Assembly (NCBI RefSeq): GCF_003258595.1
Contig: NZ_QHHQ01000006.1
Coordinates: 124,001 to 188,000 of the forward strand
DNA: 64,000 nt
Direction of reading: 5' to 3'
DNA from: Acuticoccus sediminis
GTDB taxonomy: Bacteria; Pseudomonadota; Alphaproteobacteria; Rhizobiales; Amorphaceae
Positions 40,105 through 59,921 of the stretch are shown here, one piece after another (the first letter of the stretch is position 1; each line of letters opens with the position of its first letter). Below the pieces are notes generated by a model, which saw nothing but the letters and a program-made list of their open reading frames with translations, did no database searches and was not told the origin of the DNA. The position numbers and the translations under genes are program-made.

Positions 40105-40337
40105 CGGATGTCCTCGTGAACTCGTGTTCTGCGTTCGGCCCGGATCGGTCCGACGTCGTTGAGGGCAAATTGAGCACTCAACCCGCTCGCGGCAAGCGTC
40201 CGAACGTCGATCATCCGGCAAACTGGCGCGGGAGTGCGCCAATGTTTGAAACGCCGGGCGCTTTACACCGCCACAAACTGCTGCCCTAATCACAATCAGA
40301 GAGAGCAAAAATGCTCCGATATCTAGGGAGGGTGGTG

Positions 40338-41676: not shown

Positions 41677-42693
41677 ATGGGGAGATTCGCCGCGCGTCAC
41701 CCGATCTGGTCGGCCATCATCGTCCTCGCGGCGGCGGTGCTGATCTGGGCGATCTTCGCGCCCTGGCCGGAGGCGCTGGAGGATGCGATCGGCCGCAAGA
41801 AGATCTTCCTCAACGCGCTCTTCAACGGCATCACGCTGGGGGCGCTCTATTTCCTCGTCGCCTCGGGCTTCACGCTGATCTTCGGGCTGATGAAGAACGT
41901 GAATCTCGCGCACGGCTCGCTCTACATGCTCGGCGGCTACCTCGGCTACGAGACCGCGGCGGCGACCGGCTGGTGGCTCCTCTCCTTCGTCGTCGCCTTC
42001 GTGGTGGTGGGGCTGATCGGCGTCCTGCTGCAGGTCCTGGTCTTCCGCCGGATGGAGGGGGAGGACCTCAAGCAGACGCTGGTGACGATCGGCATCTCCA
42101 TCGTCATCGCCGACCTGATGATGTGGATCTGGGGCGGCGACTTCTACCAGATCCTGACGCCGGCGTGGCTCTCCGGTCCGATCGACCTGCCGCTGATCAC
42201 CGGGGTGAGCCGGCGCACGGGCGAGTACATCTACCTGACCTACCCGGTGGTCCGGCTCGTCATCCTGCTCGCGGCCATCGCCATCGGGGTCGGCATGTGG
42301 CTGGCGCTGAACCGGACGCGGATCGGCATGCTGGTGCGTGCCGGCGTCGACGACCGCGACATGCTCTCGGCGACGGGCGTGCGCATCCAGCGCGTCTTCG
42401 TCCTGGTGTTCGCCTTTGGCGCGGGACTGGCGGGGATCGCCGGCGTCATCGGCGGGACCTTCCAGTCGGTGGCGCCGGGTGAGGACACGCGCTTCCTGCT
42501 CGCCTCGCTGGTGGTCGTCATCGTCGGCGGCATGGGCTCGATCCCCGGCGCGGCCCTTGGGGCGTTGCTGATCGGCCTGGCGGAGCAGTTCGGCTCGGTC
42601 TACGCGCCGACCTACGCGGTGGTGCTGACCTTCCTCATCATGGTGCTGGTTCTCGCCTTCCGGCCGCAGGGCCTCGTCGCGGTGCGGCGCTGA
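41677..42693 (+). CDS. livH: Branched-chain amino acid-type ABC permease, LivH family
   Basis: 338 aa, eight to nine TM helices. Seen: NALFNGITLGALYFLVASGFTLIFGLMKNVNLAHGSLYMLGGY, the LivH hallmark, and RAGVDDRDMLSATGVRIQRVFVLVFAFGAGLAGIAG, the cytoplasmic EAA-like loop. First gene of a livH-livM-livG-livF order; stop overlaps the livM ATG by one base (TGATG). No substrate-binding protein gene lies nearby, so the ligand cannot be named; the family carries amino acids, amides, urea and aromatic compounds. Confidence 0.92.
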   Translation: MGRFAARHPIWSAIIVLAAAVLIWAIFAPWPEALEDAIGRKKIFLNALFNGITLGALYFLVASGFTLIFGLMKNVNLAHGSLYMLGGYLGYETAAATGWWLLSFVVAFVVVGLIGVLLQVLVFRRMEGEDLKQTLVTIGISIVIADLMMWIWGGDFYQILTPAWLSGPIDLPLITGVSRRTGEYIYLTYPVVRLVILLAAIAIGVGMWLALNRTRIGMLVRAGVDDRDMLSATGVRIQRVFVLVFAFGAGLAGIAGVIGGTFQSVAPGEDTRFLLASLVVVIVGGMGSIPGAALGALLIGLAEQFGSVYAPTYAVVLTFLIMVLVLAFRPQGLVAVRR

Positions 42694-43766
42694 TGGCGAT
42701 CCTCGACGCCCCCACCGACGCCGCGACCGACTCCGGGTCGCGTGCCGAGCGCCGCTGGTGGCAGCTCTCGGGCATTCCGCCGGCGTACTGGATCGTCGGG
42801 CTGATCCTTCTCTTCATGCCGGTGGTCGCCTCGGGCTTCGTGCTGTCGCAGCTCCTCGCGTGGTCATTCATCCTGGGCATGATCGCGCTGTCGCTGATGT
42901 TCCTCGCCGGCTACGGCAACATGGTCAGCCTGGTGCAGATGACGGTGGCGGGCGTCGCGGCCTACATGGTGGCGATCTTCGGCACCTCCGCCGTGGACAC
43001 GATCTCGCTCGGCTGGCCGTGGTGGGTCGCCGCGCCGGTGGCGATCCTCGTGGCGGTGCTCTTCGGCACGCTCTCCGGCGCTCTGGCGGTGCGCACGGAG
43101 GGGATCTACACGATCATGATCACCCTCGCGATCGCCGCCGCGATGTTCTACCTGGTGCGGCAGAACTACAGCCTCTTCAACGGCTTCTCCGGTCTCAACC
43201 AGGTGAGCGCGCCGGTCTTCTGGGGCGTCAACTGGCGCGCGGCGGTGCCGTTCTACTACCTCTGCCTGGTCTGCGCGGCGCTGTCCTACCTCGCGGTGAT
43301 CTACGTGAAGCGCTCTCCGTTCGGGCTGGCGCTGCAGGGTGTGCGCGACAATCCGCGCCGCATGGCGGCGCTGGGCTTCAACGTCACCGCCCACCGGATC
43401 GCCGCGTACGCGTTCGCGAGCCTCATCGCCGGTGTCGCGGGCGTGCTCCTCGTGTGGCTCAACGGGCAGGTCTCGCCGGGGACGATCGCGGTGGGGCCGG
43501 CGATCGACATCCTGATCATCGCCGTCGTCGGCGGCCTCGCGCATCCGATCGGCCCGTTCCTGGGCGCGCTCCTCTACGTGTTCCTGCGGACCTTCGCGCT
43601 CGACGTGCTGGTCTCCGTCGGGCTCGCGGGCGAGCGGTTCCAGCTCCTCATCGGGCTCGGTTTCCTGGTCGTGGTGTTCTTCTCTTCCGACGGGCTCCTC
43701 GGCATCTGGCGGCGCCTGCGCGAACGCTCGCGCCGCGACCCGCTGACGGGAGAGACCGATGGCTGA
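42693..43766 (+). CDS. livM: Branched-chain amino acid-type ABC permease, LivM family
   Basis: 357 aa. Seen: MIALSLMFLAGYGNMVSLVQMTVAGVAAYMVAI, GTLSGALAVRTEGIYTIMITLAIAAAMFYLV, and the EAA-type GLALQGVRDNPRRMAALGFNVTAHRIAAYAFAS. Pairs with the LivH protein in the inner membrane. Overlaps livH by 1 nt and livG by 8 nt. Confidence 0.92.
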   Translation: MAILDAPTDAATDSGSRAERRWWQLSGIPPAYWIVGLILLFMPVVASGFVLSQLLAWSFILGMIALSLMFLAGYGNMVSLVQMTVAGVAAYMVAIFGTSAVDTISLGWPWWVAAPVAILVAVLFGTLSGALAVRTEGIYTIMITLAIAAAMFYLVRQNYSLFNGFSGLNQVSAPVFWGVNWRAAVPFYYLCLVCAALSYLAVIYVKRSPFGLALQGVRDNPRRMAALGFNVTAHRIAAYAFASLIAGVAGVLLVWLNGQVSPGTIAVGPAIDILIIAVVGGLAHPIGPFLGALLYVFLRTFALDVLVSVGLAGERFQLLIGLGFLVVVFFSSDGLLGIWRRLRERSRRDPLTGETDG

Positions 43767-44550
43767 GACCGTTGCCTCGCGCCTGTCGACCACCGGAACC
43801 GCGAACGCGCTGGAGCTGAGGGGCGTCTCCCGGCTCTTCGGCGCGCTGGCCGCGCTGACCGACATCACGATGACGGTCCGTCCCGGCGAGCGGCGGGCGG
43901 TGCTCGGCTCCAACGGCGCGGGCAAGACGACGCTCTTCAACTGCATCACCGGCGACTTCGGCCCCTCGGCCGGCACGATCCGCCTGTTCGGCGAGGACGT
44001 GACGGCGTTTCCGCCCTACGAACGGATCCGCCGTGGTCTGCGCCGCACCTACCAGATCTCGCTGCTCTTCACCGGCCTCTCGGTGATCGACAACGTGTAC
44101 CTCGCGTGCCGCGGCGTCTCGCGCGGGCGCTTCTCGTTGATGCGTCCGCGCCGGGGCGACCCTCTGCTCGCCTCCGCGCGCGACCTCGTCGACGCGGTGC
44201 ACCTCACCCATGTTCGCGACACGGCGGTCGCCAACCTCGCCTACGGCCAGCAGCGGCAGCTCGAGATCGCTCTGGCGCTCGCCGGCGCGCCGCGCTTCAT
44301 CCTCTTCGACGAGCCGGCGGCCGGCCTCTCGCCGACCGAGCGGCGCGAGCTGGTGGAGATCCTGACGGGGCTGCCGGAGCACATCGGCTACATGATCATC
44401 GAGCACGACATGGACGTCGCGCTGCGCGTCGCCGACCGGGTGACGATGATGCACAACGGGCGCATCTTCAAGGAGGGCCTGCCGCACGAGATCGAGGACG
44501 ATCCGGAGGTGCAGGAGCTCTACCTCGGAGGCGCCCATGGCGGGCACTGA
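43759..44550 (+). CDS. livG: Branched-chain amino acid-type ABC ATPase, LivG family
   Basis: 263 aa. Walker [13 protein letters not shown], LivG-type insert [26 protein letters not shown], a degenerate ABC signature ([15 protein letters not shown] in place of LSGGQ), Walker [14 protein letters not shown], and the H-loop [19 protein letters not shown]. Energises uptake with the fused LivF protein encoded next. Confidence 0.93.
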
Positions 44551-44615
44551 GGCCATCGCGGTCCGGCGCCGGTCATGCGCGCCCCCCCTCGGCCGGGGCG
44601 CGGGGAGGGGCTCTC

Positions 44616-46766
44616 ATGGCGCGTGACGCCGCCGGTCCGCCGATCCTCGAGGTCAAGGGGCTCAACGTCTACTACGGGGCCTCGCACGCGCTGCAGGGCG
44701 TGGACCTGACGCTGCAGTCGGGCGTCCTCTCGGTGGTCGGGCGCAACGGCATGGGCAAGACCACGCTGTGCAAGGCCATCATGGGAATCGTGCCGTCCTC
44801 GGGCTCCATCCGCCTCGGCGGCGAGGAGATCCGTGGCCGCAGCTCCACCGAGATCGCGCGGATGGGCGTCGGCTACGTCCCGCAGGGCCGGCGGCTGTGG
44901 CGCTCGCTGACGGTCGACGAGCACCTGAAGCTGATGGCGCGCGGCAACGGCTCGTGGTCGGTGGAGCGCATCTACGCGACGTTCCCGCGCCTCGCCGAGC
45001 GCAAGAACAACGGCGGCGGCCAGCTCTCGGGCGGCGAGAGCCAGATGCTGGCGATCAGCCGGGCGCTGCTCCTCAACCCGCGCCTTCTGGTGATGGACGA
45101 GCCGACGGAGGGGCTGGCTCCGGTCATCGTCGCCCAGGTCGAGGACATGCTCGTCCGTCTCGCTGAGGAGGGCGTCCACGTTCTCGTCATCGAGCAGAAC
45201 ATCGGCGTCGCGTGCGAGGTGGCGCCGAACGTCGCGATCATGGTCAACGGCCGGGTGGACCGGCTGCTCGACGCGGGTCAGCTCGCCGCCGACCGCGACC
45301 TGCAGCAGCGCCTCCTCGGCGTCGGCCGCCATGCGCACGACGACACGCCCCGGCCCGCTCCCGAGGCCGCCGCGCCCGAAGGCGGGCACGCCGCGTCGAC
45401 CGTCGCCAAGGTCTACCTCTCCAACCCTGTCGCGCCGACGCGCTGGTCGAGGCCGGTGCCGGTGCGCCTCATCGAGCAGGCCGCCCGCACCGTCTCCATG
45501 ACACAGGGGCGCTCCACCGTGGAGGCGGAGCTGCGCCCGCTCGCGGGACCGGGCGAGGAGGTCGTCATCGTCGCCGGCACGCTCGACACCAAGGGCGAGG
45601 AGCTGCGCTACATCCGCGACATCATCCGCGCGCGCGGCCACGCGGTGCGGCTCGCCGACCTCTCCACGTCGGGCGCGCACTCGGGCGCGGAGATCCCCGC
45701 GCACCAGATCGCCGCCTTTCATCCGCGCGGCGCGTCGGGCGTTTTCGTCTCCGATCGCGGCGAGGCGGTGGCCGGGATGACCCTCGCGTTCGAGCGCTGG
45801 ATCGCCCGCCAGTCGGGGATCTCCGGCATCGTCTCGGCCGGCGGGTCCGGCGGCACGGCGATGGTCGCCCCGGCGATGCGGCGCCTGCCGGTGGGCGTCC
45901 CGAAGCTCATCGTCTCGACGATGGCCTCGGGCAGCATCGCCCAGTATGTCGGCGCCTCCGACATCACGATGATGCACTCCGTGGCCGACATCGCCGGGCT
46001 CAACGCGATCACCCGGCGCGTCCTCGCCAACGCCGCCAACGGCATCGCCGGCATGGTGGAGAGCCGCGCGGCGATCCCGGCGGGCCTGCCGCCGGTCGGC
46101 ATCACCATGTTCGGCGTCACCACCCCTTGCGTCCGCCAGGTGACCGAGGCGCTGAAGCGCGACCACGAGTGCCTCGTCTTCCACGCCACGGGGACGGGCG
46201 GGGCGGCGATGGAGGCGCTGGTCGACCAGGGCCTCGTGAAGGGCGTCATCGACGTCACCACAACCGAGATCGCCGACATGATGATGGGCGGCATCCTCGC
46301 CGCGACCGAGGACCGGTTCGGCGCCGTCATCCGCCGCAAGGTTCCGTGGGTGGGCTCGCTCGGCGCGCTCGACATGGTGAACTTCGGCGCGCCGGACACG
46401 GTGCCGCCGCGCTACGCCGGCCGCCGCCTCCACCGCCACAACCCGCAGATCACCCTGATGCGCACGACGGCGGAGGAGAACGCCGCGATGGGCCGCTGGA
46501 TCGGCGAGCGCATCAACCGGATGGACGTCGCGCGGCTTCTCATCCCCGAGGGAGGGCTCTCGGCGCTCGACGCGCCGGGCGAGGCCTTCCACGACCCGGC
46601 CGCCGACCGCGCCCTGTTCGAGGCGCTGGAGGCGACGGTCCGCCAGACCGCGGCGCGGACCATCGAGCGTCTGCCGCACCACATCAACGACCCGGCCTTC
46701 GCCGCGGCGCTGGTGGCGGCGTTCCGGACGCTCTCCGGCGGGGAGCGCAAGCGGCGGGCGTCCTGA
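44616..46766 (+). CDS. LivF-type ABC ATPase fused to a Tm-1-like (UPF0261) domain
   Basis: 716 aa from ATG 44616 (GGGGAGGGG upstream). Residues 1-240: LivF ATPase with [45 protein letters not shown] and VLVIEQNI. Residues 240-300: Pro/Ala linker. Residues about 310-705: Tm-1-like ATP-binding domain, opening with [21 protein letters not shown] and containing [33 protein letters not shown] and [14 protein letters not shown]. Stand-alone Tm-1-like proteins are about 400 aa, so the whole domain is present, and both parts are in one uninterrupted frame. Tm-1 relatives bind ATP; their bacterial reaction is unknown. The fusion couples it to a transporter (inference: processing of the imported compound). 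Confidence 0.88.
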
Positions 46767-46829
46767 CGCGCGTGCGGTGCTCGGATACCGGCGCTTGCAG
46801 GCGCCGCGTCAAGGGCCTACGAGGCGCCG

Positions 46830-47507
46830 ATGCGCACCCGGATCAAGATCTGCGGCATCGCCTCGCGCGAGGAGGCAGGGACGGCCATCTCGGCCGGGGC
46901 GGACGCGCTCGGCTTCGTGTCGCCGATGCCGGGCGGCACGGGGACGATCCCCGACGCGACGATCGCCGCGATCGCCGCCGACGTGCCGCCGCCGGTCGCG
47001 ACCGTGCTGCTGACGGCCGAGACCACCGCGGCCGCGATCTCCGACCACGTCCGCCGGACGCGAACCACGGCGGTGCAGATCGTCACCCACATCGACCCCG
47101 ACGAGGCCGCGCGCCTCGCCGAGCTGGAGCCGGCGGTGCGGCGGATCCAGGTGGTCCACGTCGAGGGACCGGAGGCGCTCGGCCTGCTGGCGCCATACGA
47201 GCCCCACGTCCACGCCTTCCTGCTCGATTCGGGCCGGCCCAGCCTCGACGCCACCGACCTCGGCGGCACGGGGCGGACCCACGACTGGACGGTGAGCGCG
47301 CGCATCGTCGCGGCGAGCGCGCGGCCGGTGTTCCTCGCCGGGGGCCTCAACGCCCGCAACGTGGGGGAGGCGATCGGCAGTGTCCGACCGTTCGGCGTCG
47401 ATCTCTACTCCGGCGTGCGGACCGGCACTCGGCTCGACCGGCACAAGCTCGCCGACTTCGTGAGGGCGGTGGGCGCGGGCACGAACGCGCGCGAGCGCGC
47501 CGCCTGA
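46830..47507 (+). CDS. TrpF-like (phosphoribosylanthranilate isomerase fold) protein
   Basis: 225 aa (beta/alpha)8 barrel. Seen: RIKICGIASREEA with catalytic-type C8, LLDSG with D133, GGTGRTHDW, FLAGGLNARNVGEAI (phosphate-binding loop) and GVDLYSGVR. However, the substrate-contacting F..(K/R)SPR motif of true TrpF after strand 2 is replaced by GFVSPMPGGTGTIPD. With no trp genes nearby and a position 63 bp after the Tm-1 fusion, a different isomerase/aldolase-like function on the transported compound is likelier than tryptophan synthesis. Confidence 0.78.
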   Translation: MRTRIKICGIASREEAGTAISAGADALGFVSPMPGGTGTIPDATIAAIAADVPPPVATVLLTAETTAAAISDHVRRTRTTAVQIVTHIDPDEAARLAELEPAVRRIQVVHVEGPEALGLLAPYEPHVHAFLLDSGRPSLDATDLGGTGRTHDWTVSARIVAASARPVFLAGGLNARNVGEAIGSVRPFGVDLYSGVRTGTRLDRHKLADFVRAVGAGTNARERAA

Positions 47508-47564
47508 GCACGGCCCGCTCGCCCGTATTGACGACCGCGCGGCGGATCGACAAAGGTTTTGTCT

Positions 47565-48317
47565 ATGGATACTGCAGCCAAAGACTTGAGTCGCGTCGTC
47601 TACTTCACGACGTGGAAGTGCGCCTCCACCTTCCTTCTGCGCCTCTGCACGGACATCGCCCGGCATCGCGGGGTCCCGCTCTATACGGCAGGCGTGAAGG
47701 AGGGACGGATCAAGACCGCGGACATGGCGGCGCACCCGTTCTGGCAGGAGAAGGCGTTCGTGGCCGGTCCCGTCCGGCGCCGCATCTTCGCCCCGGCGGA
47801 CTTTCCGTTCGACCGCGTCGGCACCATCATCCACCTGCGCGACCCGAGGGACGTCCTCGTCTCGCTCTATTTCCATAAGCTCTACTCCATGCGCGACACG
47901 ATGCCGGGCCGCATCGGTCCGGAGGAGGTGCGGGCGTGGGAGGAGCGGGGGATCGACGACTTCGTCCTGTCGCACATCCACCAGTACCTCGCGGTCTACG
48001 ACGAGTATCTCGACCTGTCGCGCACCTATCAGGTACCGATCCTGACCTACGAGGAGCTCGTGACCTCAACCGCGACGTACCTCGCCAAGGTCGGCGCGCA
48101 TCTCGGTCTCGAGGACGACTTCGTCGCGACGCTGGTGGAGCGGCACACGAAGGCCTTCGCCCCGCGCGAGGAGTCGGCGGACCAGCACATCCGCAAGATC
48201 ACGCCGGGCGATCACCGCGAGAAGCTGCAGGAATCCACCATCCGCGCGCTGACGGAACGCTTCGGCGCATACTTCGACGCCGTGCCGCAGTTCGAACCGG
48301 CGGCCGCCGCCTCCTGA
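47565..48317 (+). CDS. Sulfotransferase-family protein
   Basis: 250 aa from ATG 47565 (AAAGG nine nt upstream); TTG 47559 is possible. The 5'-PAPS loop position is occupied by FTTWKCASTFLLRLC, and IIHLRDPRDVLVSLYFHKL matches the 3'-phosphate-binding motif (R-D-P-R/x-D...S). Cytosolic transfer of sulfate from PAPS to a hydroxylated acceptor, perhaps a glycan; substrate unknown. Stands alone between the transporter operon and the flotillin-like gene. Confidence 0.82.
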   Translation: MDTAAKDLSRVVYFTTWKCASTFLLRLCTDIARHRGVPLYTAGVKEGRIKTADMAAHPFWQEKAFVAGPVRRRIFAPADFPFDRVGTIIHLRDPRDVLVSLYFHKLYSMRDTMPGRIGPEEVRAWEERGIDDFVLSHIHQYLAVYDEYLDLSRTYQVPILTYEELVTSTATYLAKVGAHLGLEDDFVATLVERHTKAFAPREESADQHIRKITPGDHREKLQESTIRALTERFGAYFDAVPQFEPAAAAS

Positions 48318-48327
48318 CCCCGGCCCC

Positions 48328-48348
48328 GGCGCCGGCCCGCCCGGCGCC
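48328..48348. terminator. Hairpin after the sulfotransferase gene
   Basis: Perfect 8-bp stem GGCGCCGG (48328-48335) and CCGGCGCC (48341-48348), 5-nt loop, 10 nt after the stop. No T-tract. Confidence 0.4.
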
Positions 48349-48521
48349 CTGCCGTCCCGCGGCACGCCCGGTCCGGCCGCCGCGCGAATACCGGGCGCCC
48401 GCCGCGCCGCGGCACTGATCAGGGCGTCTGGTCTTCCGCCCAAAATCAGACCCACTGCAACGCACGGTTCCCAAAACCGCGTCACCATGTCCGGCAAAAT
48501 AAACCGGGAGTGACGCGCATC

Positions 48522-51500
48522 ATGACAGGGGAACTCATCGGCGAGCTCATCTTGTGGCTCGTCCTGGCCGTCATCGTCATCTTCGTCGTCTACTGGGTGA
48601 TGAACTGGCTCTACCGCCGGTCCACCAAGGAACACGCGTACGTGCGGACCGGCTTCCTCGGTGAAAAGGTCGTCATCGACGGCGGCGCCTTCGTCTGGCC
48701 CATCATCCACGACATCACGCCCGTCGCGATGCACACCCTGCCGCTCGACGTCACGCGTGAGCGCGAGCACGCCCTCATCACCAAGGACCGGATGCGCGTG
48801 GACGTCGAGGCGGAGTTCTACGTCCGCGTCCGTCCGGAGCGCGCCGCGGTCTCCCGCGCGGCCTCCACGCTGGGCCGGCGCACGCTGGAGCCGGAGCGGC
48901 TGCAGCCGCTGCTGGCGGGCAAGTTCGAGTCCGCGCTGCGCATCGCCGCCGCCGAGATGGCGATGGGCGACATCCACGAGCAGCGCGGCACCTACGTGAA
49001 GCGCGTCAAGGAGCTCGCGCAGGAATCGCTGGAGCAGAACGGCCTGGAGCTGGAATCGGTCGCCATCAAGGACATCGACCAGACCGCGCTCGAGTACTTC
49101 AACCCCTCCAACCGCTTCGACGCCGAGGGTCTCACCGCCCTGATCCGCGAGATCGAGGAGCGGCGCACGCTGCGCAACGAGATCGAGCAGGCGTCCATGA
49201 CGCGGATCCGCACGCGCAACCTGGAGGCGGAGAAGGACGCCCTCGCGATCGAGCGCGACTCCGAGCAGGCGCGCCTCGAGCAGGAGCGCGAGATCGAGTT
49301 CCGCCGAGCCCAGCAGCGCGCCGAGATCGCCCGCGAGCGGGCCGAGCGGCAGACCGACGCCGAGCGCGCCGAAATCACCGCGCGCGAGACGATCGAGCTG
49401 GCGCGCATCGCCAACGACCAGTCCATCGCCGAGGTGCGGATCCAGTCCGAAAGGGAGATCCGTCAGCGCGAGATCGACCGCCAGCGCGCCCTCGACAGCG
49501 CCGAGATCTCCGCCCGGCGCGACACCGAGACCGCCCGCATCGAGCAGGAGCGGGCGGTGTCGGAATCGCGGATCATCAACGAGCAGGACATCGAGGCGCG
49601 CGAGATCGCCCGCCGCCGCACCATCGACGAGACCGAGATCGCCGCGCGCGAGGCCACCGATCGCGCCCGCATCGAGCAGGAGCGCGCCGTCGCCGAGGCC
49701 CGGATCGCCAGCGACGAGGCGACCCGTGCCCGCGAGATCGCCCGCCAGAAGCTCCTGGAAGCGGCCGAGATCGCCGCCCGGGAGGAGACCGAGAAGGCCC
49801 GCATCCTCCAGGATCAGGCGATCGTCGACGCGCGCATCGCCAGCGAGGAGGGGATTCGCCGCCGCGAGATCGCCCGCACCCGCGCCGTGGACGAGGCCGA
49901 GATCGAGGCGCGCGAGACCGTCGAGAAGATGCGCATCGCCGAGGCCGCCGCGACGTCCGAGGAGCGCATCGTCACCGACCGCCGCGTGCGGGAGCTGGAG
50001 ATCGCCCGCCAAGAAGCGGTGGAGGCGGCCGAGATCGCCGCCCGGCAGGCCGTCGAGGCGGCGCAGATCGCCCGGGACAAGGCGATCGCCGCCGACCGCA
50101 TCGCCTACGAGCAGGACGTGCGCGAGCGTGAGATCGCCCGGAGCCGCGCCGTCGACCAGGCGGACATCTCCGCCCGCAGGACCGTCGAGGAGGCGCGCAT
50201 CACCACCGACGCCCGGATCGACGAGGCCCGCATCTCCGCCCGCGAGGAGGTCGCCATCAACCAGACCGCGTCGGAGGAGCGGACCGAGACCGCCCGCATC
50301 TCGCTCACCAAGATCCTGCGCGCCGAGCGGATCGCGGCCGAGCAGGACGCCTCCGAGCGCGAGATCAGCAGCGGCGCGGCCCTCGAAGCGGCCGACATCC
50401 GCCGCCGCGAGTCGACCGAGCGCCAGCGCATCGAGATGGAACTCGGCCTCGAGATGGAGCGGATCGCCGCCAGCCAGGAGCGCGAGGTCTCCGACATCGA
50501 CCGCAAGCGCATGGTGGAAGAGGCCGAGGAGGCCCGGGTCATCGAACTCGCGACCAAGCGGACCGAACGGGCCGCGGCCGAAGCCCGCGTCAAGCGCGCC
50601 GAGATCGAGGCGGGTCGTGACGTGGAGAAGACCGGGATCGAGCGGGAGAAGGTCATCGACGCCGCCAGGCTGGAGCGGCGCCGCGCGACCGAGCAGCTCG
50701 AGATCGCCCGCGTCCAGGCGCTGCGTGAGGCCGAGATCGCCTCGACGGAGGACATCGAGCGCGCCCGCATCGCCTCCGAGCGGGGTCTCGACGAGGCCCG
50801 CATCGGCCACGAGACGGAGCGGCGCCGCCGCGAGGTCGCCCGCGAGCGCGACGTCGAGATGGCGCAGATGGAGAAGGCCATCACCCTCTACGCCAAGTCG
50901 CTGGAGGAGAGCGCGGCGCGCATCGCCGCCGACAACGAGCTCGCCCGCGCCGCGGAGGCCGAGGAGCGCGTCAAGACGGTGCGCCAGACCGAGGAGGCGC
51001 AGCGCCGCAAGACCATCGACGTGCTGATGGCCGAGAAGGCCGCGCAGGAGGCGCGCCACGCCGCCGACGCGGAGAAGGTGCGCACCGCCGTGGAGGCCGA
51101 GGCGCAGAAGCTCATCAACGAGGCCGAGAACGTCCTCTCCGACGGCGCCCGCGCGTCCGTCTTCCGCCGCCGCCTGCTGGAGCGGATCGAGGGCATCGTC
51201 GCCGCGTCCGTCAAGCCGATGGAGAAGATCTCCGACATCCGCATCGTCCAGCTCGACGGGGCGAACGGATACGGCCATGGCGGCGAGGGCGGCCGGCAGA
51301 ATGCCACCGACGAGGTGATCAACTCGGCGCTGCGCTACCGCATGCAGGCGCCGCTGGTGGATTCGCTGCTCGCCGACATCGGCATCGAGGGCGGAACGCT
51401 CGCCAAGATGCCGGGCCTCATCCGCGAGGCAAGCGACATGCAGCGCATCGCCCGCGAGTCCGGCGGCGGTGGCGGCTCGGGCAGCTCCGGCGGCGAGAAG

Positions 51501-51536
51501 GGCGACAGGGGCTCCAAAGAGCCGAAGGGAGCGTGA
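48522..51536 (+). CDS. Very long flotillin-like SPFH protein with expanded coiled-coil repeats
   Basis: 1004 aa from ATG 48522; GTG 48510 is the frame limit. One N-terminal TM helix (residues 8-30, LILWLVLAVIVIFVVYWVM), then an SPFH/band-7 domain to about 240: KEHAYVRTGFLGEKVVIDGGAFVWPIIHDI, LDVTREREHALITKDRMRVDVEAEFYVRV and NGLELESVAIKDIDQT. From about 245 to 860 it is uninterrupted charged helix built on 11-residue units, including six in-register 44-residue repeats (283-546). The C-terminus (ALRYRMQAPLVDSLLADIG) and a Gly-rich tail follow. Typical flotillins are about 450-650 aa. Family knowledge: flotillins oligomerise at the inner face of ordered membrane domains. Directly followed by SRPBCC/methyltransferase genes, suggesting a scaffold for those or for the downstream hydroxylase (inference). 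Confidence 0.9.
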   Translation: MTGELIGELILWLVLAVIVIFVVYWVMNWLYRRSTKEHAYVRTGFLGEKVVIDGGAFVWPIIHDITPVAMHTLPLDVTREREHALITKDRMRVDVEAEFYVRVRPERAAVSRAASTLGRRTLEPERLQPLLAGKFESALRIAAAEMAMGDIHEQRGTYVKRVKELAQESLEQNGLELESVAIKDIDQTALEYFNPSNRFDAEGLTALIREIEERRTLRNEIEQASMTRIRTRNLEAEKDALAIERDSEQARLEQEREIEFRRAQQRAEIARERAERQTDAERAEITARETIELARIANDQSIAEVRIQSEREIRQREIDRQRALDSAEISARRDTETARIEQERAVSESRIINEQDIEAREIARRRTIDETEIAAREATDRARIEQERAVAEARIASDEATRAREIARQKLLEAAEIAAREETEKARILQDQAIVDARIASEEGIRRREIARTRAVDEAEIEARETVEKMRIAEAAATSEERIVTDRRVRELEIARQEAVEAAEIAARQAVEAAQIARDKAIAADRIAYEQDVREREIARSRAVDQADISARRTVEEARITTDARIDEARISAREEVAINQTASEERTETARISLTKILRAERIAAEQDASEREISSGAALEAADIRRRESTERQRIEMELGLEMERIAASQEREVSDIDRKRMVEEAEEARVIELATKRTERAAAEARVKRAEIEAGRDVEKTGIEREKVIDAARLERRRATEQLEIARVQALREAEIASTEDIERARIASERGLDEARIGHETERRRREVARERDVEMAQMEKAITLYAKSLEESAARIAADNELARAAEAEERVKTVRQTEEAQRRKTIDVLMAEKAAQEARHAADAEKVRTAVEAEAQKLINEAENVLSDGARASVFRRRLLERIEGIVAASVKPMEKISDIRIVQLDGANGYGHGGEGGRQNATDEVINSALRYRMQAPLVDSLLADIGIEGGTLAKMPGLIREASDMQRIARESGGGGGSGSSGGEKGDRGSKEPKGA
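49368..50159 (+). repeat. Six tandem 132-bp (44-residue) hendecad repeats in the flotillin-like gene
   Basis: Units begin at 49368, 49500, 49632, 49764, 49896 and 50028 with exact 132-bp period and no gaps; a seventh, decaying unit starts at 50160. Each encodes four 11-residue blocks of the form (A/T)EIxARxxxEx, ARIxxExAxxE, xRIxxExxxRx, REIARxRxxDE. Isoleucine at position 3 of each block defines the 11-residue period expected for a right-handed coiled coil. Confidence 0.88.
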
Positions 51537-51537
51537 C

Positions 51538-51975
51538 GTGCCGCGCGTCTACGTCTCCAGCGTGATCAATGCGCCCGCGCCCGAGGTCTGGGCACGGGTG
51601 CGGGACTTCAACGCGCTGCCGCGCTGGCACCCGCGCATCCGCGAGAGCCGCATCGAGGACGGCCTGCCGTCCGACAAGATCGGCTGCGTGCGTGACTTCC
51701 GCCTGCAGAACGGCGACCGGCTGCGCGAGAAGCTCCTCGGCCTTTCCGACTACGACATGTTCTGCACCTACGCGATCCTCGAGAGCCCGATGCCGCTGAC
51801 GGACTATGTCGCCACGCTCCGGATCACCCCGATTACCGACGGCGACCGAACTTTCGCCGAATGGTCGGCGGATTTTGAGTGCGCCGAAGACGACGTGGAC
51901 GACCTCGTGAGCGGTATCGGGACCAACGTGTTCCAAGGGGGCTTCGACGCTCTGAAGCGGCACTTCACGCGCTGA
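51538..51975 (+). CDS. SRPBCC-family protein (polyketide cyclase/START-like), copy 1
   Basis: 145 aa from GTG 51538, one base after the flotillin-like stop, with GAAGGGAG upstream. Seen: RVYVSSVINAPAPEVWARVRDFNALPRWHP, KIGCVRDFRL.NGD.LREKLL, then LRITPITDGDRTFAEWSADFE. This is the helix-grip fold of small hydrophobic-ligand-binding proteins. Clear paralogue of the gene at 52834 (shared WA.VRDFN...RWHP, DK.G.VR.F, LREQLL/LREKLL, TDGD.TF). Ligand unknown. Confidence 0.85.
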   Translation: MPRVYVSSVINAPAPEVWARVRDFNALPRWHPRIRESRIEDGLPSDKIGCVRDFRLQNGDRLREKLLGLSDYDMFCTYAILESPMPLTDYVATLRITPITDGDRTFAEWSADFECAEDDVDDLVSGIGTNVFQGGFDALKRHFTR

Positions 51976-51995
51976 GGAAGGCGGAGGAAAGCGCC

Positions 51996-52805
51996 ATGGC
52001 CGACCCATTCCAGAACGTCTCGGACGCCGGACAGGAGCTGATCGACATCATGGTCGAAACGCTCGAGAACCGTGGCGCCGATCCGCAGATGGTACCCGTC
52101 ATCGACGCCTATCTGGATGATCTGACGGTCGCCCCGGGGGCCCGGATCGTCGAGATCGGGGCCGGGACGGGTCCCGTGTCGCGTCGCATCGCCGACCGCT
52201 TCCCCGACGCCTCGGTGCTCGGCGTCGAGCCCTCGCCGGAGCTGGTGGCGGAGGCCGACAAGCGGGTCGGCGGCCGGGCCAACCTCGCCTTCGCCGTCGG
52301 CAGCGGCGACCGCCTCGCCGAGGTGGACGGCGGCATCGATATCGCGGTGCAGCACACGGTGCTCTCCCACGTGCCGGACCCTGCTGTCCTGGTGGCGGAG
52401 GCCGCACGCGTCCTGAAGCCGGGCGGCAGGCTCGTCATCTGCGACGCGGACTTCTCCAAGCAGTCCGCCGGCGCGTTCGAGGACGACCCGCTGCAGGCCT
52501 GCTTCGACCTCTTCAGGAAGACGTTCGTGACCGACGCCTTCCTCGCGGCGAAGCTGCCGCGCCTGATCGCGGACGCCGGGCTCACTCTCGACATCTTCCG
52601 CGTTGCCAACCGCCTCACGCTGACCGGACCCGGCGTCCTCGGGCCGGTGCGGATGGCGACGAAGTACATGCTCGACAACGGCATGATCGGAGAGCCGCTC
52701 GCCGTTGCGCTCGTCGGCGAGTACGAGCGGCGCGACAGAGACGGCACGCTCTACGCGCTGACACCGTTCGTGACCGCCATCTCCACCAGGCCGAGGGCGA
52801 CATGA
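51996..52805 (+). CDS. Class I SAM-dependent methyltransferase
   Basis: 269 aa from ATG 51996 with GGAGG upstream. Motif I VEIGAGTGPVSRRIAD, motif II VLGVEPSPELVAEAD, then IAVQHTVLSHVPDPAVLVAEAARVLKPGGRLVICD. Typical Methyltransf_11/25 domain; substrate unknown. It lies between two paralogous SRPBCC genes (20-bp and 28-bp gaps), so the three are almost certainly cotranscribed with the flotillin-like gene. Confidence 0.88.
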   Translation: MADPFQNVSDAGQELIDIMVETLENRGADPQMVPVIDAYLDDLTVAPGARIVEIGAGTGPVSRRIADRFPDASVLGVEPSPELVAEADKRVGGRANLAFAVGSGDRLAEVDGGIDIAVQHTVLSHVPDPAVLVAEAARVLKPGGRLVICDADFSKQSAGAFEDDPLQACFDLFRKTFVTDAFLAAKLPRLIADAGLTLDIFRVANRLTLTGPGVLGPVRMATKYMLDNGMIGEPLAVALVGEYERRDRDGTLYALTPFVTAISTRPRAT

Positions 52806-52833: not shown

Positions 52834-53283
52834 ATGGTGAAGATCGTCACCTCGACCGTCATCGACGCGCCGATCGAGGCGGTGTGGGCGGTCGTGCGCG
52901 ACTTCAACGGGCACGACCGCTGGCACCCGGCGGTCGCCGACTCGGTCATGGAGCGCGGCGCGCCGACGGACAAGGTCGGCGGCGTGCGGCGCTTCCACCT
53001 CGCCGACGGGGCGGAACTGCGCGAGCAACTCCTGGCGCTCGACGATGCCGAGATGACGATGAGCTACTGCCTGCTCGACACGCCGGTGCCGCTCTTCAAC
53101 TACGTCGCCCACTGCCGGCTGCTGCCGGTCACCGACGGCGACATGACCTTCTGGCACTGGGAGTCGCGCTTCGACACGCCCCGGGGCCGCGAGAGCGAAC
53201 TGAAAACCATGGTCACCAACGACATCTACTACGCCGGCATGAACGCGGTGCGCGCGTTCGTCGGCGAGCGGGGGGGCGCATGA
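52834..53283 (+). CDS. SRPBCC-family protein, copy 2
   Basis: 149 aa. KIVTSTVIDAPIEAVWAVVRDFNGHDRWHP, TDKVGGVRRFHLADGAELREQLL and LLPVTDGDMTFWHWESRFDTP match copy 1 throughout. Same fold and probably related ligand. Duplicated SRPBCC genes around a methyltransferase next to a molybdenum hydroxylase suggest chaperone-like or substrate-carrier roles as with CoxG (inference). Confidence 0.85.
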   Translation: MVKIVTSTVIDAPIEAVWAVVRDFNGHDRWHPAVADSVMERGAPTDKVGGVRRFHLADGAELREQLLALDDAEMTMSYCLLDTPVPLFNYVAHCRLLPVTDGDMTFWHWESRFDTPRGRESELKTMVTNDIYYAGMNAVRAFVGERGGA

Positions 53284-53344: not shown

Positions 53345-54133
53345 ATGCCGGTGAGCGTCGCCACCTACGCCTCGCTCGCCGAGGCGGGCCGGGCCTTCGC
53401 GGACCGCCGCACCGCCCGCGTCTACTCGGGCGGCACCATCGTCATGCGCGCGGTCAACGAGGGGGACACCTCGTTCGACACGCTCATCCGCATCACCGAC
53501 CGCGCCTACACGGAGATTGCCGTCGGCAGCGAGGTGCGGCTGGGCGGCGGCGTCACCATGGGCGCGATCGCCGCCCACCGCGACCTCGCCTTCCTGGCGC
53601 CCGTCGCACGGGTCATCGGCGGGCCGCAGGTCCGGTCCGTGGCGACGGTGGCGGGCAACCTCTTCGCCCCGGCGCCCTACGGCGACCTCGCGGGCGCGCT
53701 CATGGCCCTCGGCGCGCAGGCCGAGCTGGCCGGCGGTGGCCGCGTCGCGGTGGACGAGCTGGTGCGGGGCGGGGGGAGCCGCGCCCTCGTCGCTGCGGTC
53801 AACTTCCCGCGCCCGCAGGGGGAGCTGCGGTTCGCCAAGGTCTCCCGCGTCAGGCCGAAGGGCGTCGGGCTGATGTCGATCTCGGCGCTGCTGCCGCGCG
53901 GCGGCGGGGGCGGGGACGTGCGCATCGTCTTCAACGGGATGGGGCCGCACCCGGTCCGCGCCACGGCTGCCGAGCGGGCACTCTCGGGCCGGGCGGGCGA
54001 CCGGCAGGCGATCGAGCGGGCGGCGGCCAGCGCGGCGGAGGGCCTGTCGCCGGTCGACGACGCCCTCGCCTCCGCCTGGTACCGGCGCGAGGTCGCGGGC
54101 GTTCACCTCAAGCGTCTCCTGGAGGCCCGGTAA
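53345..54133 (+). CDS. Molybdenum hydroxylase FAD subunit (CoxM-like)
   Basis: 262 aa. VAO/PCMH-type FAD domain: YSGGTIVMRAVN, then VRLGGGVTMGAIAAH and VIGGPQVRSVATVAGNLFAPAPYGDL (the second FAD motif), with the CO_deh_flav C-terminal domain after about 165. It takes electrons from the 2Fe-2S subunit. Somewhat short for CoxM (usually about 285 aa). Its stop overlaps the small-subunit start (TAATG). Confidence 0.9.
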   Translation: MPVSVATYASLAEAGRAFADRRTARVYSGGTIVMRAVNEGDTSFDTLIRITDRAYTEIAVGSEVRLGGGVTMGAIAAHRDLAFLAPVARVIGGPQVRSVATVAGNLFAPAPYGDLAGALMALGAQAELAGGGRVAVDELVRGGGSRALVAAVNFPRPQGELRFAKVSRVRPKGVGLMSISALLPRGGGGGDVRIVFNGMGPHPVRATAAERALSGRAGDRQAIERAAASAAEGLSPVDDALASAWYRREVAGVHLKRLLEAR

Positions 54134-54621
54134 TGGCCAAGACACCCATCCGCTTCACGCACAACGGCGACGAGCGCGCGGTCTTCGTCGACGACGGGCA
54201 GAACCTCCTCGACATGCTGCGCCGCACCGCCGGCGACCTCACGCCCAAGTACGGCTGCGGGCAGGGCACCTGCGGCGCCTGCACCGTCCTCGTCGACGGC
54301 GAGCCGCAGCTCTCGTGCCTGACGCTCGCCGAGACGGTGGACGGGCGCGCGATCGACACCGTCGCCGGTCTCGGTAACGGCCGCCTCTCGCCGCTGCAGA
54401 AGGCCTTCATGGACAACTTCGCCGCCCAGTGCGGCTACTGCACCGACGGCATGCTGATGTCCGCCACCGCGCTCCTGAAGAAGAACCCGCGGCCGACGCG
54501 CGAGGAGGTGGTGGAGGCGATCTCCGGCAACCTCTGCCGCTGCACCGGCTACGAGGCGATCATCAACGCCGTCCTCGCCGCCGCCGGCGGCGCGGGCGCG
54601 GCGTCCGCGGGACGGAGGTAG
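54133..54621 (+). CDS. Molybdenum hydroxylase 2Fe-2S subunit (CoxS-like)
   Basis: 162 aa. N-terminal plant-type cluster: KYGCGQGTCGACTVLVDGE with the later LSC (four cysteines). C-terminal all-alpha cluster: AQCGYCTDGMLMSATALL and GNLCRCTGYEAIINAVL. Both 2Fe-2S sites are complete. Overlaps the FAD-subunit gene by 1 nt and precedes the large-subunit gene by 5 nt. Confidence 0.94.
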   Translation: MAKTPIRFTHNGDERAVFVDDGQNLLDMLRRTAGDLTPKYGCGQGTCGACTVLVDGEPQLSCLTLAETVDGRAIDTVAGLGNGRLSPLQKAFMDNFAAQCGYCTDGMLMSATALLKKNPRPTREEVVEAISGNLCRCTGYEAIINAVLAAAGGAGAASAGRR

Positions 54622-54626
54622 CGACG

Positions 54627-56342
54627 ATGCCCATTGAGTTTCGCAAGGAATATTTCGCGGACGAGCGTGACGACAATCTCAACGAGATCGGCAAGCCGAC
54701 GCAGCGGCAGGACATGCTGGGGCACGTCACCGGCCGCTCGCCCTTCTACGACGACCACCTGTTCGACGGGCTGCTCCACATCCGCTGCGTGCGCTCGCCG
54801 CACCACCATGCCCGCGTGCGCCGGATCGACACCTCCGAGGCCGAGCGCGTTCCCGGGGTGAAGCGGGTGATCCTCGCCCGCGACGTGCCGCACAACCTCA
54901 ACACGCTGCTCTCGCTGATGGACTTCGGCCTCGACGACGAGCCGATGATCGCCGCCGAGGGCGAGGAGGTGCGCTACAAGGGCGAACCGGTCGCGGCCAT
55001 CGTCGCCGACACCGAGCGGATCGCCCGGGAGGCCGTCGCGAGGGTGCGCGTCGACTACGAGCTGCTGCCCCACGTCCTCGACGTGGAGGAGGCGATCAAG
55101 CCGGGCGCGGTGGCGGTGAACCCCGCGTACCCGGCCAACAAGTTCGTCTACCACGGCAAGTACGATCACCAGAAGCTGCGCTACGGCGACGTCGACGCCG
55201 CCTTTCGCCAGTGCGACCGGGTGATCGAGGGCCGCTACCAGATGAGCCCCATCGAGCAGGCGCCCATCGAGACCTGCGGCGCCATCGCCGCGCCCGAAAC
55301 CAACGACCGCTGGGTCTGCTACACCTCGACCCAGGCGCTGTTCTTCTCCCTCGGCACCGCCGCCAAGCTCCTCGACCTCTCCTCCGCGCGGCTGCACCTC
55401 ATCGGCGGCACGGTGGGCGGCGGCTTCGGCGGCAAGGTCGATTCCATCCACGAGCCGCTCGCGATCCTCGGCGCGGTCCTCACCGGGCGGCCCTGCAAGG
55501 CGATGTTCGACCGCGAGGAGGAGATGCAGGTCGGCGCCCCCCGCGGCGCCGAGCGCTGGTACGTCACCGACGGCGTGATGAACGACGGGCGCATCATGGC
55601 CCGCAAGTTCGTCGGCTACTTCGACGCCGGCGCCTACACGCGCCTCTCCTCGTACGCGATCATCAAGTCGGTCGGCCATCTTCCGGGGCCGTACACGATC
55701 CCGAACGTCTACGCCGACGTCTACTGCGTCTTCACCAACCGCACGCCGGCGACGGCGATGCGCGGCTTCGGCGTCACCGGCGTCGACTTCGCGATCGAGA
55801 GCCACATGGACGTCGTCGCCCACGAGCTGGGGCTCGACCCGATCGAGATGCGCATCCTCAACGCCTACCGCGACGGGGACATGAAAGCCCACCGGCGCCT
55901 TGCCAAGAACACGGCCCTCGTCGAGTGTTGCCATGTCGCTGCGGAGAAGGCGGGTTGGCCGCTGTCGGCGGAGGCGCGAGCGGCCTCGTCGCTACACGGC
56001 GGCGGGGGACAGCGGGGCGAGCTGCCGGCCTTCACGGCGCAGGACGAGAACGGCCGGGTTTCCGGCTACGCGTCCGGGTCGTACGCGCAGGGCGAGCGCC
56101 CCCGCGAGCCGGTCGGGACCGGGCGGGACGCCGTGCCGCCGCGTCCGTCGCACCAGCCTCCGCGCGCACCTCAGCCGGCACGGGCGGACCTGCGCCGGAC
56201 GCCAGAGCCGGCGGGGTCGGCCGGTCCGCCTCCTTCTGCGCCGCGACCGGAGCGCGCACCCGAGCCGGCCGCCAACCCCGACGGGGCGGCGCCGCGCCGC
56301 GGGCCACGCTTCGCCTCGATTTCCGGCCTCCGGCGGAGGTAA
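54627..56342 (+). CDS. Molybdenum hydroxylase large subunit, N-terminal part (split CoxL/XdhA-like)
   Basis: 571 aa from ATG 54627 (GGAGG upstream). Residues 1-430 hold the first part of the large subunit: GKPTQRQDMLGHVTGRSPFYDDH, VRYKGEPVAAIVAD, QAPIETCGAIAA, GGTVGGGFGGKVDS (molybdopterin loop) and the active-site loop ATAMRGFGVTGVDFAIE. Form I CO dehydrogenases have AYRCSFR and form II AYRGAGR, so this is neither. After AEKAGWPL the protein turns into a 130-residue Pro/Arg-rich tail ending SISGLRRR instead of the second half of the fold, which is encoded at 57490-58530. A bona fide split subunit is likelier than a broken gene because both parts start and stop cleanly. Confidence 0.87.
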   Translation: MPIEFRKEYFADERDDNLNEIGKPTQRQDMLGHVTGRSPFYDDHLFDGLLHIRCVRSPHHHARVRRIDTSEAERVPGVKRVILARDVPHNLNTLLSLMDFGLDDEPMIAAEGEEVRYKGEPVAAIVADTERIAREAVARVRVDYELLPHVLDVEEAIKPGAVAVNPAYPANKFVYHGKYDHQKLRYGDVDAAFRQCDRVIEGRYQMSPIEQAPIETCGAIAAPETNDRWVCYTSTQALFFSLGTAAKLLDLSSARLHLIGGTVGGGFGGKVDSIHEPLAILGAVLTGRPCKAMFDREEEMQVGAPRGAERWYVTDGVMNDGRIMARKFVGYFDAGAYTRLSSYAIIKSVGHLPGPYTIPNVYADVYCVFTNRTPATAMRGFGVTGVDFAIESHMDVVAHELGLDPIEMRILNAYRDGDMKAHRRLAKNTALVECCHVAAEKAGWPLSAEARAASSLHGGGGQRGELPAFTAQDENGRVSGYASGSYAQGERPREPVGTGRDAVPPRPSHQPPRAPQPARADLRRTPEPAGSAGPPPSAPRPERAPEPAANPDGAAPRRGPRFASISGLRRR

Positions 56343-57489: not shown

Positions 57490-58530
57490 GTGGCGATCCA
57501 CAAGGGCCGGGGTTTTGCCTGCATCAACTACCCCATCGGCATGAACCTCGGGGGCGACCCGTCCCAGGCGCTCGTCCACTCCAATCCGGACGGGAAGTTC
57601 ATGGTGGCGCTGTCCTCCATCGACCTCGGCCAGGGGATGAAGTCCGTCACCCGCCAGATCGCCGCCGAGACGCTGGGGGTGCCGGTGGAGGACGTCTACG
57701 TCGACACCGCCGACAGCGACACCGGCCCACACTGCATGGGCTCCTTCGCCTCGCGCGGGACGCACCGCGTCGGCAACGCCGTGATCCAGGCGGCCAGGGA
57801 GGCGAGGGCGGTCATGCTCGAGGCGGCCGCCGAGGAACTTGAGGTCAACGCCTCCGACCTCGTGACCGACGGTCGCGGCAACATCCACGTCAACGGCGCG
57901 CCGTCCCGCTCCATCACCACCGGAGAGGCGTGCGAGGCGGCGCAGTTCAAGCACGGCAAGACCGTGTCGGGGCGGGGGATCTTCCTCATCCCGCTGTCGG
58001 AGGTGAGCCCCGAGACGGGGGAGATGACGCCGGTCTCCTGCTTCGCCCACGCCGCGGTCATCCTCGACCTCGAGGTCGACGACGAGACCGGCGAGGTGCG
58101 CGTCCTGGAGGTGAACTCGGCCTACGAGCTGGGCCGGGCGCTGAACCCGCGCCTCGTCGAACAGCAGCTCATCGGCGGTGCGTGGATGGGCCTCTCCCAC
58201 GCCCTCTACGAGACGACCGAGCCCTACTACCCGAACCGCGACCACGGCCCGACCGACTTCAACCACTACCTGATGCCCGGGCCCGGCGACATCGCCCCCC
58301 ACAACGTCGCCGTCCTGGAGCGGCCGGCGCCGGACGGTCCCTACGGCGGCAAGGGGCCCGGCGAGATGTGCGCCAACCCGCTGCTCCCCGCCGCCGCCAA
58401 CGCCGTCTTCGACGCGGTCGGCGTGCGCATCACCGACCTCCCGATCACCCCGGAAAAGATCCTGCGCGGCATCCGCGACAACGGCGGTACCCGGCCGGGA
58501 CGTCACGCCAGGGCCGGGAGCCGTCAGTGA
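57490..58530 (+). CDS. Molybdenum hydroxylase large subunit, C-terminal part (split)
   Basis: 346 aa from GTG 57490 (GGGGAGGG upstream). Begins at a natural domain boundary (HKGRGFACINYPIGMNLGGD), then SSIDLGQGMKSVTRQIAAETLGV (DxGQG cofactor motif), FASRGTHRVGNAV, LNPRLVEQQLIGGAWMGLSHALYE and GPYGGKGPGEMCANPLLPAAANAV with the catalytic glutamate of the GxGE motif. It therefore supplies the active-site base that the N-terminal part lacks; both are needed for one active site. 147 bp after that part's neighbour EamA gene stop to start is 136 bp. Confidence 0.88.
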   Translation: MAIHKGRGFACINYPIGMNLGGDPSQALVHSNPDGKFMVALSSIDLGQGMKSVTRQIAAETLGVPVEDVYVDTADSDTGPHCMGSFASRGTHRVGNAVIQAAREARAVMLEAAAEELEVNASDLVTDGRGNIHVNGAPSRSITTGEACEAAQFKHGKTVSGRGIFLIPLSEVSPETGEMTPVSCFAHAAVILDLEVDDETGEVRVLEVNSAYELGRALNPRLVEQQLIGGAWMGLSHALYETTEPYYPNRDHGPTDFNHYLMPGPGDIAPHNVAVLERPAPDGPYGGKGPGEMCANPLLPAAANAVFDAVGVRITDLPITPEKILRGIRDNGGTRPGRHARAGSRQ

Positions 58531-59822: not shown

Positions 59823-59921
59823 GCGGCGGGGTCGTGCCCCGGCTGCGGGCCTCCGGACGGAGGGCGCCCCGGTCCGCCGACGCCGGGGCGTGCCGCCGCG
59901 CCCTCACGTGCGGGCGCTGAC

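Follow-up and report, generated by a model that had tools for sequence, protein, structure and literature searches.

Among described systems, the human FLOT1/FLOT2 cage (PDB 9bq2, 9l3g) offers a close comparison for the gene considered here, a long flotillin gene in a 64,000-nucleotide stretch of DNA from Acuticoccus sediminis, a member of the Alphaproteobacteria (Hyphomicrobiales) (contig NZ_QHHQ01000006.1, positions 124,001 to 188,000; this whole stretch is called the window). In both, an SPFH domain is followed by a long helix. In the available text of Fu and MacKinnon (PMC11260169), 44 helices of 186 amino acids (aa) stand side by side in the FLOT1/2 wall and form a right-handed barrel one layer thick, which has no heptads and is held by charged clusters on its inner and outer surfaces. 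The same text gives a span of 44 to 189 aa for SPFH wall helices. HflK/C, prohibitin, erlin and stomatin form domed rings in which, according to the accessible part of PMC12624060, the number of subunits (y) rises with the length of the CC1 helix (x) as y = 0.1782x + 10.22.

Judged from its sequence, the Acuticoccus protein is a genuine flotillin and a member of a long-stalked clade. Its 1008 residues are arranged as a membrane helix, an SPFH domain, a stalk of 11-residue repeats (hendecads) and the flotillin C-terminal (Flot) domain. As a whole, the observations are best explained, with a rough probability of 0.58, by a flotillin whose stalk would form a cage wall lengthened by hendecads, and which would corral the products of a conserved gene cluster. 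What appears to be new is a flotillin whose far longer stalk follows a clear building rule and for which a cargo can be suggested.

Domain layout and relatives

The flotillin assignment is based on two Pfam matches, Band_7 (PF01145; E 4.3e-16, 59.9 bits against a cut-off of 23.6) for the SPFH domain and Flot (PF15975; E 6.7e-33, 113.9 bits against a cut-off of 27) for the C-terminal domain. The initial annotation, which had called the protein flotillin-like and greatly lengthened, was right on both counts. Between residues 209 and 877, the stalk contains no proline and consists of 44% D/E/K/R. An AlphaFold2 model built from 17 sequences predicts helices at 209-416, 436-581 and 593-877, with breaks at 417-435 and 582-592, so that most of the stalk would be helical; its contour would be about 100 nm if straight (669 x 0.15 nm), with a lower height for inclined helices. 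The hydropathy maximum (3.04 over 19 residues, at residue 9) predicts a single N-terminal membrane helix, whereas FLOT1/2 have no transmembrane helix. Translation may truly begin at ATG 48522, where many relatives start with M-T/S-G, although this support is mild, as the relatives' starts were chosen near the expected place. An antisense open frame of 1070 aa (48066-51278, minus strand) overlaps the gene and is probably a by-product of GC-rich repeated codons.

The window stalk measures about 667 residues, compared with 186 aa for the FLOT1/2 wall, and these are different measures, ordinary bacterial forms giving 224-268 by the present anchors. It also lies beyond the known wall range of 44-189 aa, a difference of degree which does not exclude SPFH membership. 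Long stalks (488-920 residues) are about 2-4 times as long as ordinary bacterial ones by the same anchors, and about 2.6-5 times as long as the published human wall. Short bacterial flotillins, which we take to be of the FloT/YqiK type, share the SPFH domain, the stalk and the flotillin C-terminus, and their stalks (224-268) follow the same 11-residue rule described below, but are about one third as long, and 3 of 19 such genes adjoin SRPBCC1, a gene of the conserved cluster. One short flotillin (a 563-aa frame, on G000:C4) is also present in the Acuticoccus genome.

SPFH matches at E 1e-3 were found in 23 of 61 genomes around the window, its own included. Within the genus, six of seven other genomes match; five of these proteins are intact (960-1092 aa), and a contig end truncates the sixth. 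A class-wide draw gave matches in 27 of 240 genomes at 1e-30, and a phylum-wide draw in 41 of 398 at 1e-50. Among the 48 matches listed from the latter, 15 have E <1e-80 and open frames of 735-1072, all within the Alphaproteobacteria; in the ten matching genomes from other classes, the frames measure 552-597. In places an open frame is longer than the protein it encodes, as in genome G088, where a frame of 967 contains a stalk of 367. A metagenome-assembled genome labelled Granulosicoccus (locus L101) is a possible exception to the class restriction. The scan of named genomes took the best 80 of 524 relatives and is biased to near relatives. The long form also occurs on at least two large plasmids, in Shinella zoogloeoides (97% query coverage, 54% identity) and in Yoonia, where it is annotated as a flotillin domain-containing protein. 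A lone aberrant copy or an assembly artefact is rejected, as the long form recurs in many genomes. Dominance of normal-length homologues, a caveat raised by the initial annotation, does not hold among near relatives, given the five intact proteins of the genus, and does hold farther out.

Six stretches of viral_contigs matched a peptide pattern and none of them encodes a relative. With the single sequence, PDB gave only two weak hits, none of them to a flotillin; FLOT1/2 were recovered with a profile built on 12 members, most of which are shorter ones. No description of the long-flotillin clade, of flotillin hendecads or of the gene cluster was found in open-licence PubMed Central papers among the matches listed, part of which were judged by title or the start of the abstract. 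A second long SPFH family (L153, L155, L156, L157 and L158) has open frames of 858-956 aa, an SPFH domain 33-40% identical, a charged stalk and a different C-terminus; it gives no match to the C-terminal hidden Markov model (HMM) and is excluded from the counts.

Eleven-residue order in sequence and in length

At the DNA level, six copies of a 132-bp unit start at 49338, 49470, 49602, 49734, 49866 and 49998. Their spacing is exact, as the initial annotation had stated, and they are 61-72% identical to the reference copy; a seventh copy at 50700 lies 702 bp further and out of step. Tandem Repeats Finder reports a period of 132 over 49466-49916 with 72% matches, and the best 66-bp match in the window gene is 79% (codon-phase lags tested). 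This divergence indicates that the amplification is old in the window gene, contrary to the recent tandem amplification first supposed, and relatives across the class are long as well. Amplification is perhaps recent in a few relatives, the top 66-bp match among 101 genes being 97% (L073, at a lag of 264 bp). The best overall lag is 132 bp in 78 of these 101 genes (stalks of at least 340 residues).

At the protein level, large hydrophobic residues within 231-560 peak at periods of 5.50 (power 5.99) and 2.75 (4.57), which are 11/2 and 11/4, against a maximum of 1.30 across 20 shuffles. Residue autocorrelation has maxima at 11, 22, 33, 44, 88 and 132, and heptad power stays at background in 89 long stalks (0.43-0.68), bearing out the 11- rather than 7-residue order of the initial annotation. 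The claim that the repeats abut the SPFH domain without a gap fails, because the Band_7 match stops at residue 202, well before the first copy near residue 277; the 11-residue register itself begins before the 132-bp array. The pattern was also said to decay while continuing to about residue 860. It does continue, and beyond about residue 670 there is more than a simple decay, since hendecads persist there in a phase shifted by 3 residues. In-register runs reach 63 hendecads.

The same number governs stalk length, taken as the residues between HMM anchors. Measurement was made in 120 of 131 frames (six cut or broken frames and five of the second SPFH family were left out), which collapse to 115 distinct stalks of 224-920 residues. 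Modulo 11, these belong to class 7 (66 stalks), class 4 (47), class 1 (one) and class 0 (one). Two of the eleven classes take in 37 of the 39 distinct lengths, the chance mean being 12.4 and the chance maximum 20 in 20,000 draws; over moduli 3-30, a departure from near-uniform is seen for 11 and for 22, its double, and for no other. Regular-expression anchors, applied to 66 of 80 named loci (five had no such anchor, and nine were contig-cut or lacked the C anchor), gave classes 9 (46), 6 (19) and 3 (one), the labels differing because the two sets of anchors lie two residues apart. A quick maximum-likelihood tree built on the SPFH domain requires 49 or more changes of length against 6 of class, and 28 of 33 branch-disjoint pairs, formed by our own greedy pairing and in some cases distant, differ by a multiple of 11. 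A length quantum of 44 residues is rejected, as 7 of these 28 differences are multiples of 44, which is chance level. The two main classes are separated by an internal 3-residue phase shift: in long stalks, from 16 to 8 hendecads before the C anchor, isoleucine stands at position 2 in 63 of 64 class-7 members and at position 10 in 23 of 24 class-4 members.

Such lengths could be a by-product of mutation, through slippage or recombination between repeats phased at 33 bp, without selection on helix phase. Long genes do show higher DNA identity on-lag than off-lag (0.417 vs 0.322), and some relatives carry recent-looking duplications, such as that of L073. The 19 short genes, by contrast, have no 33-bp DNA repeat (identity 0.345 on-lag and 0.339 off-lag), and yet their stalk lengths of 224, 246, 257 and 268 are also elevens apart, which means that DNA slippage alone is insufficient as a cause; the excess of length changes over class changes speaks against it as well. 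This explanation is accordingly improbable by itself, with the rule of 11 pointing to selection on helix phase. Mutational bias and such selection may act together.

The composition of the hendecad, counted in blocks 8-30 of 89 long stalks, is two-sided. Position 10 is hydrophobic in 99.1% of the 1958 blocks, isoleucine being present in 1859 of them, and position 5 is hydrophobic in 75%. Positions 4, 8 and 11 are mostly alanine or small, and charged residues make up 72-96% of positions 2, 3, 6 and 9. When 11 residues are plotted over three turns of a helical wheel, the isoleucine lies amid charges, and an arc of alanine with valine or isoleucine occupies the opposite side. A single proline occurs among 58,351 residues. 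Large hydrophobics give a power of 45.0 at 2.75, 27.2 at 5.5 and 4.4 at 3.67, charged residues one of 11.7 at 3.67, and in the window stalk the coherent hydrophobic moment (0.038) is at the level of shuffled sequences (0.042±0.023), as is the mean of the 89 stalks (0.041).

Charges at position 9 follow the order ++--++--, with a mean autocorrelation of -0.82 at 22 residues and +0.71 at 44 (shuffled, -0.04 at 22). Both signs are present in 88 of 89 long stalks, the exception being L052, which is outside the clade; positions 2 and 6 share the pattern, and positions 3 and 7 do so weakly. The 44-residue unit is a charge super-period, not a length quantum. The pattern may be read as a register signal between helices, and correlation of opposite flanks in 88 stalks indicates attraction near +14 and +11 residues, also at -4, an offset of pairs inside a single helix, and at 44-residue aliases. 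No exact helix offset is claimed from it, as -4 and other offsets score equally.

How the stalk may be packed

A right-handed hendecad coiled coil has a hydrophobic core at positions a, d, e and h. The initial annotation had favoured such a rod or filament, which would be made of two to four chains and act as a spacer beneath the membrane. The hendecad period without heptads, the mostly helical, if low-confidence, model and a 3.67 component above null when alanine counts as hydrophobic are all compatible with it. The required core is absent from the 89 stalks, however: with the isoleucine of position 10 as core a, positions d, e and h correspond to positions 2, 3 and 6, which are 72-77% D/E/K/R, and the net moment is at shuffle level. 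Known right-handed hendecad coiled coils, for instance the peripheral stalk of rotary ATPases (as far as the available text of PMC6131620 describes it), have the same 11-residue period, and the charged d, e and h set the present stalk apart from them. Such a rod is consequently an unlikely structure here, and a free spacer or filament fits less well than side-by-side packing in a cage wall.

Two further readings can be placed well below it. A free single alpha-helix of the ER/K type, serving as a stiff monomeric spacer, would account for the 44% of charged residues and for many opposite-charge pairs from i to i+4, although it gives no reason for an almost invariant isoleucine at position 10, for the hydrophobic position 5 or for lengths in multiples of 11, and is very improbable. 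Amphipathic 11-residue helices are known from synuclein and apolipoproteins, so that a lipid-binding 11/3 helix lying on the membrane is suggested by the presence of 11-residue repeats in a membrane protein and by the weak 3.67 component with alanine counted. A continuous apolar face is, nevertheless, lacking, since the net moment equals that of shuffled sequences and large hydrophobics are far weaker at 3.67 than at 2.75 and 5.5, which leaves this the least credible of the readings.

Packing as the wall of a cage is probable, and FLOT1 supplies a partial parallel. Its wall (181 residues) has a moment of 0.041, and its power at 3.67 and at 3.5 does not exceed the null. With A, G and large hydrophobics taken as non-polar, the strongest period is 2.21 (power 18.2, null 6.6). 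A period of 11/5 is the second harmonic of the hendecad wheel, corresponding to two opposite faces, and the long stalks also have a 2.2 period near 11/5 (power 16.3, null 2.4). FLOT1 and the long stalks agree in the absence of heptads and in a near-zero moment, and both have a component near 2.2, but their main peaks differ (5.5 and 2.75 in the long stalks, 2.21-2.22 in FLOT1); the FLOT1 helix is close to a hendecad, not exactly one.

The domain order, 11-residue order, two-sided composition, length quantum, charge pattern and cluster conservation are read from sequence itself, and a mechanism can be proposed around them. The N-terminal helix would anchor the flotillin in the inner membrane, where SPFH domains would make a ring, and about 60 hendecads would constitute one long helix per subunit. 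Neighbouring helices would not wind into a rope but stand next to one another as a wall one layer thick, with the isoleucine ridge of one packing on the alanine and valine/isoleucine face of the next, flanking charges (++--, 44-residue period) fixing the sliding register, and the Flot domain closing the narrow end. As each residue would have to keep the same neighbour, the wall would grow or shrink almost only by whole hendecads of three helical turns, which would explain why length is quantised in elevens. Such a basket would exceed in size the SPFH cages known from the literature. At 669 aa, the published CC1 line (as given in the accessible part of PMC12624060) extends to about 129 subunits, an extrapolation more than 3-fold beyond its data.

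Several observations count against the cage-wall reading. The likeness to FLOT1 is partial: the peaks that the long stalks show at 5.5 and 2.75 are missing from FLOT1, whose large hydrophobics, taken alone, peak at 2.22 with a power of only 0.1 at exactly 2.20. A weak one-sided component exists in the long stalks: counting alanine as hydrophobic gives 10.7 at 3.67 (null 2.7), beside 29.8 at 2.75. The proposed small face includes position 1, where the residues are mixed (42% alanine or small, 28% K/R), the charge periodicity also satisfies i to i+4 pairs inside one helix, and 5 of 33 pairs violate the rule of 11. The score for the NCBIfam FloT equivalog NF058507 is 38.5 bits, far below its curated cut-off of 700. 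The AlphaFold2 model is poor, with a mean predicted local distance difference test score of 59.8 and a predicted template modelling score of 0.23, and thus supports helix only and says nothing on assembly. Finally, the flotillin of B. subtilis oligomerises through its PHB domain, according to the available text of PMC4312047.

The conserved gene cluster

On the flotillin strand, the neighbourhood was counted at 72 distinct long loci other than the window, all flanked by 5 kb or more upstream and 4.5 kb or more downstream; this is a recount of 74 (from 93 long loci) in which two places were duplicated, and one of them, L052, is outside the clade. LivH, LivM, LivG, LivF, UPF0261 and a PEP-hydrolase-like TIM barrel are each present in 70 of the 72, while SRPBCC1, SRPBCC2, CoxM, CoxS and both halves of CoxL are each found in 71, and CoxD in 64. 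The window features are listed in Table 1.

Table 1. Coordinates of the long flotillin gene, its parts and the surrounding genes in the window
Feature	Position	Strand	Remarks
Long flotillin gene	48510..51536	+	1008 aa from GTG 48510; 1004 aa from ATG 48522
Predicted N-terminal membrane helix (residues 6-37), then RRSTKE	48525..48620	+	hydropathy; low-confidence model
SPFH/Band_7 domain, residues 51-202	48660..49115	+	Pfam
Stalk, FDAEGL (residue 203) to NEAEN (residue 870)	49116..51119	+	anchors 667 residues apart
In-register hendecads, about residues 291-670	49380..50519	+	position-9 charge pattern ++--
3-residue phase-shift segment (approximate)	50520..50651	+	as in length class 7 (mod 11)
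Hendecads in shifted phase, about residues 715-800	50652..50909	+	
Flotillin C-terminal domain PF15975, residues 841-959	51030..51386	+	Pfam
Gly/Ser-rich charged tail, residues 984-1008	51459..51533	+	
LivH, LivM, LivG, LIV-type ATP-binding cassette importer	41677..44550	+	conserved cluster
LivF-type ATPase (~44616-45305) fused to UPF0261/Tm-1-like protein (~45561-46745)	44106..46766	+	one open frame
PRAI-like protein	46830..47507	+	local addition, 2/72 other long loci
Sulfotransferase-like protein	47559..48317	+	local addition, 0/72
SRPBCC protein 1	51469..51975	+	conserved cluster; frame from GTG 51469
Methyltransferase-like protein	51984..52805	+	local addition, 1/72
SRPBCC protein 2	52834..53283	+	conserved cluster
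FAD (CoxM-like) and 2Fe-2S (CoxS-like) molybdenum hydroxylase subunits	53345..54621	+	
Molybdopterin subunit, N-terminal half	54639..56342	+	Ald_Xan_dh_C, MoCoBD_1
Molybdopterin subunit, C-terminal half	57490..58530	+	MoCoBD_2
CoxD-like AAA ATPase and CoxE-like VWA protein	58941..61028	+	

SRPBCC1 (E <1e-50) occurs in 18 of 61 relatives, all with a long or mid-length flotillin, and comparison with relatives suggests that in the window it starts near 51538, right after the flotillin stop. In genome G007 (L038), the cluster is split, with the upstream half elsewhere in the genome and the flotillin remaining with the SRPBCC/Cox half, and genome G001 has the importer half with neither flotillin nor SRPBCC alongside. 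Stalk length was also set against the presence of the hydroxylase: all 78 scored clusters with it, the window included, have stalks of 488-920 residues, all eight without it have 246-403, and 19 stalks outside the cluster measure 224-543, with 16 of them at most 268. For this comparison, 10 of 115 stalks with less than 3 kb downstream were set aside, and the window was entered by hand as a cluster with the hydroxylase.

SRPBCC proteins include CoxG, which is thought to anchor CO dehydrogenase at the membrane. The proposed basket would corral a membrane patch with the SRPBCC proteins, the molybdenum hydroxylase and perhaps the importer; that the cage holds the SRPBCC proteins and hydroxylase is suggested by the gene cluster, and is a tentative proposal with chances slightly below even. 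Two facts temper it. The scored hydroxylase members form one clade, so that stalk length and hydroxylase changed together once and their association is one evolutionary event, not a repeated correlation. Moreover, no flotillin turned up in genome G053, which does have the importer, UPF0261, two SRPBCC genes and the PEP hydrolase. A still bolder picture is speculative and rather unlikely, in which a giant basket of perhaps more than 100 subunits, several tens of nm across, would be a membrane-delimited compartment of alphaproteobacteria for a molybdenum-hydroxylase pathway with SRPBCC carriers, with an 11-residue ruler for height and a ++-- register code.

The window cluster also has local peculiarities. 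Its PEP-hydrolase-like gene is missing (46766-46830), with the PRAI-like and sulfotransferase genes filling the gap; the one PEP-hydrolase match of the genome (E 1e-10) is on another contig (G000:C2:836607-837086), beside a second UPF0261. Open frames with UPF0261 are 644-999 aa long where the genome has the flotillin cluster (and in G001), and the remaining UPF0261 places listed have frames of 377-524 aa. The two molybdopterin halves are separated by an EamA-type transporter gene (56364-57350), of a type found in 3 of the 72 other long loci, and the subunit is likewise split on the Yoonia plasmid (L173). A protein of the CoxG family (PF06240) is encoded at 39415-40413 on the minus strand, about 8 kb upstream of the flotillin, farther than the longest flank covered at the other loci (7997 bp).

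The determinants of SPFH cage size and the contents of bacterial flotillins are open questions, and the long-stalked clade makes both testable. It supplies natural stalks from 488 to 920 residues in 11-residue steps. Their helices may pack side by side, and the simple rule behind their sequence would be useful in the design of protein barrels. Additionally, the conserved cluster gives a candidate cargo, testable in soil and marine bacteria.

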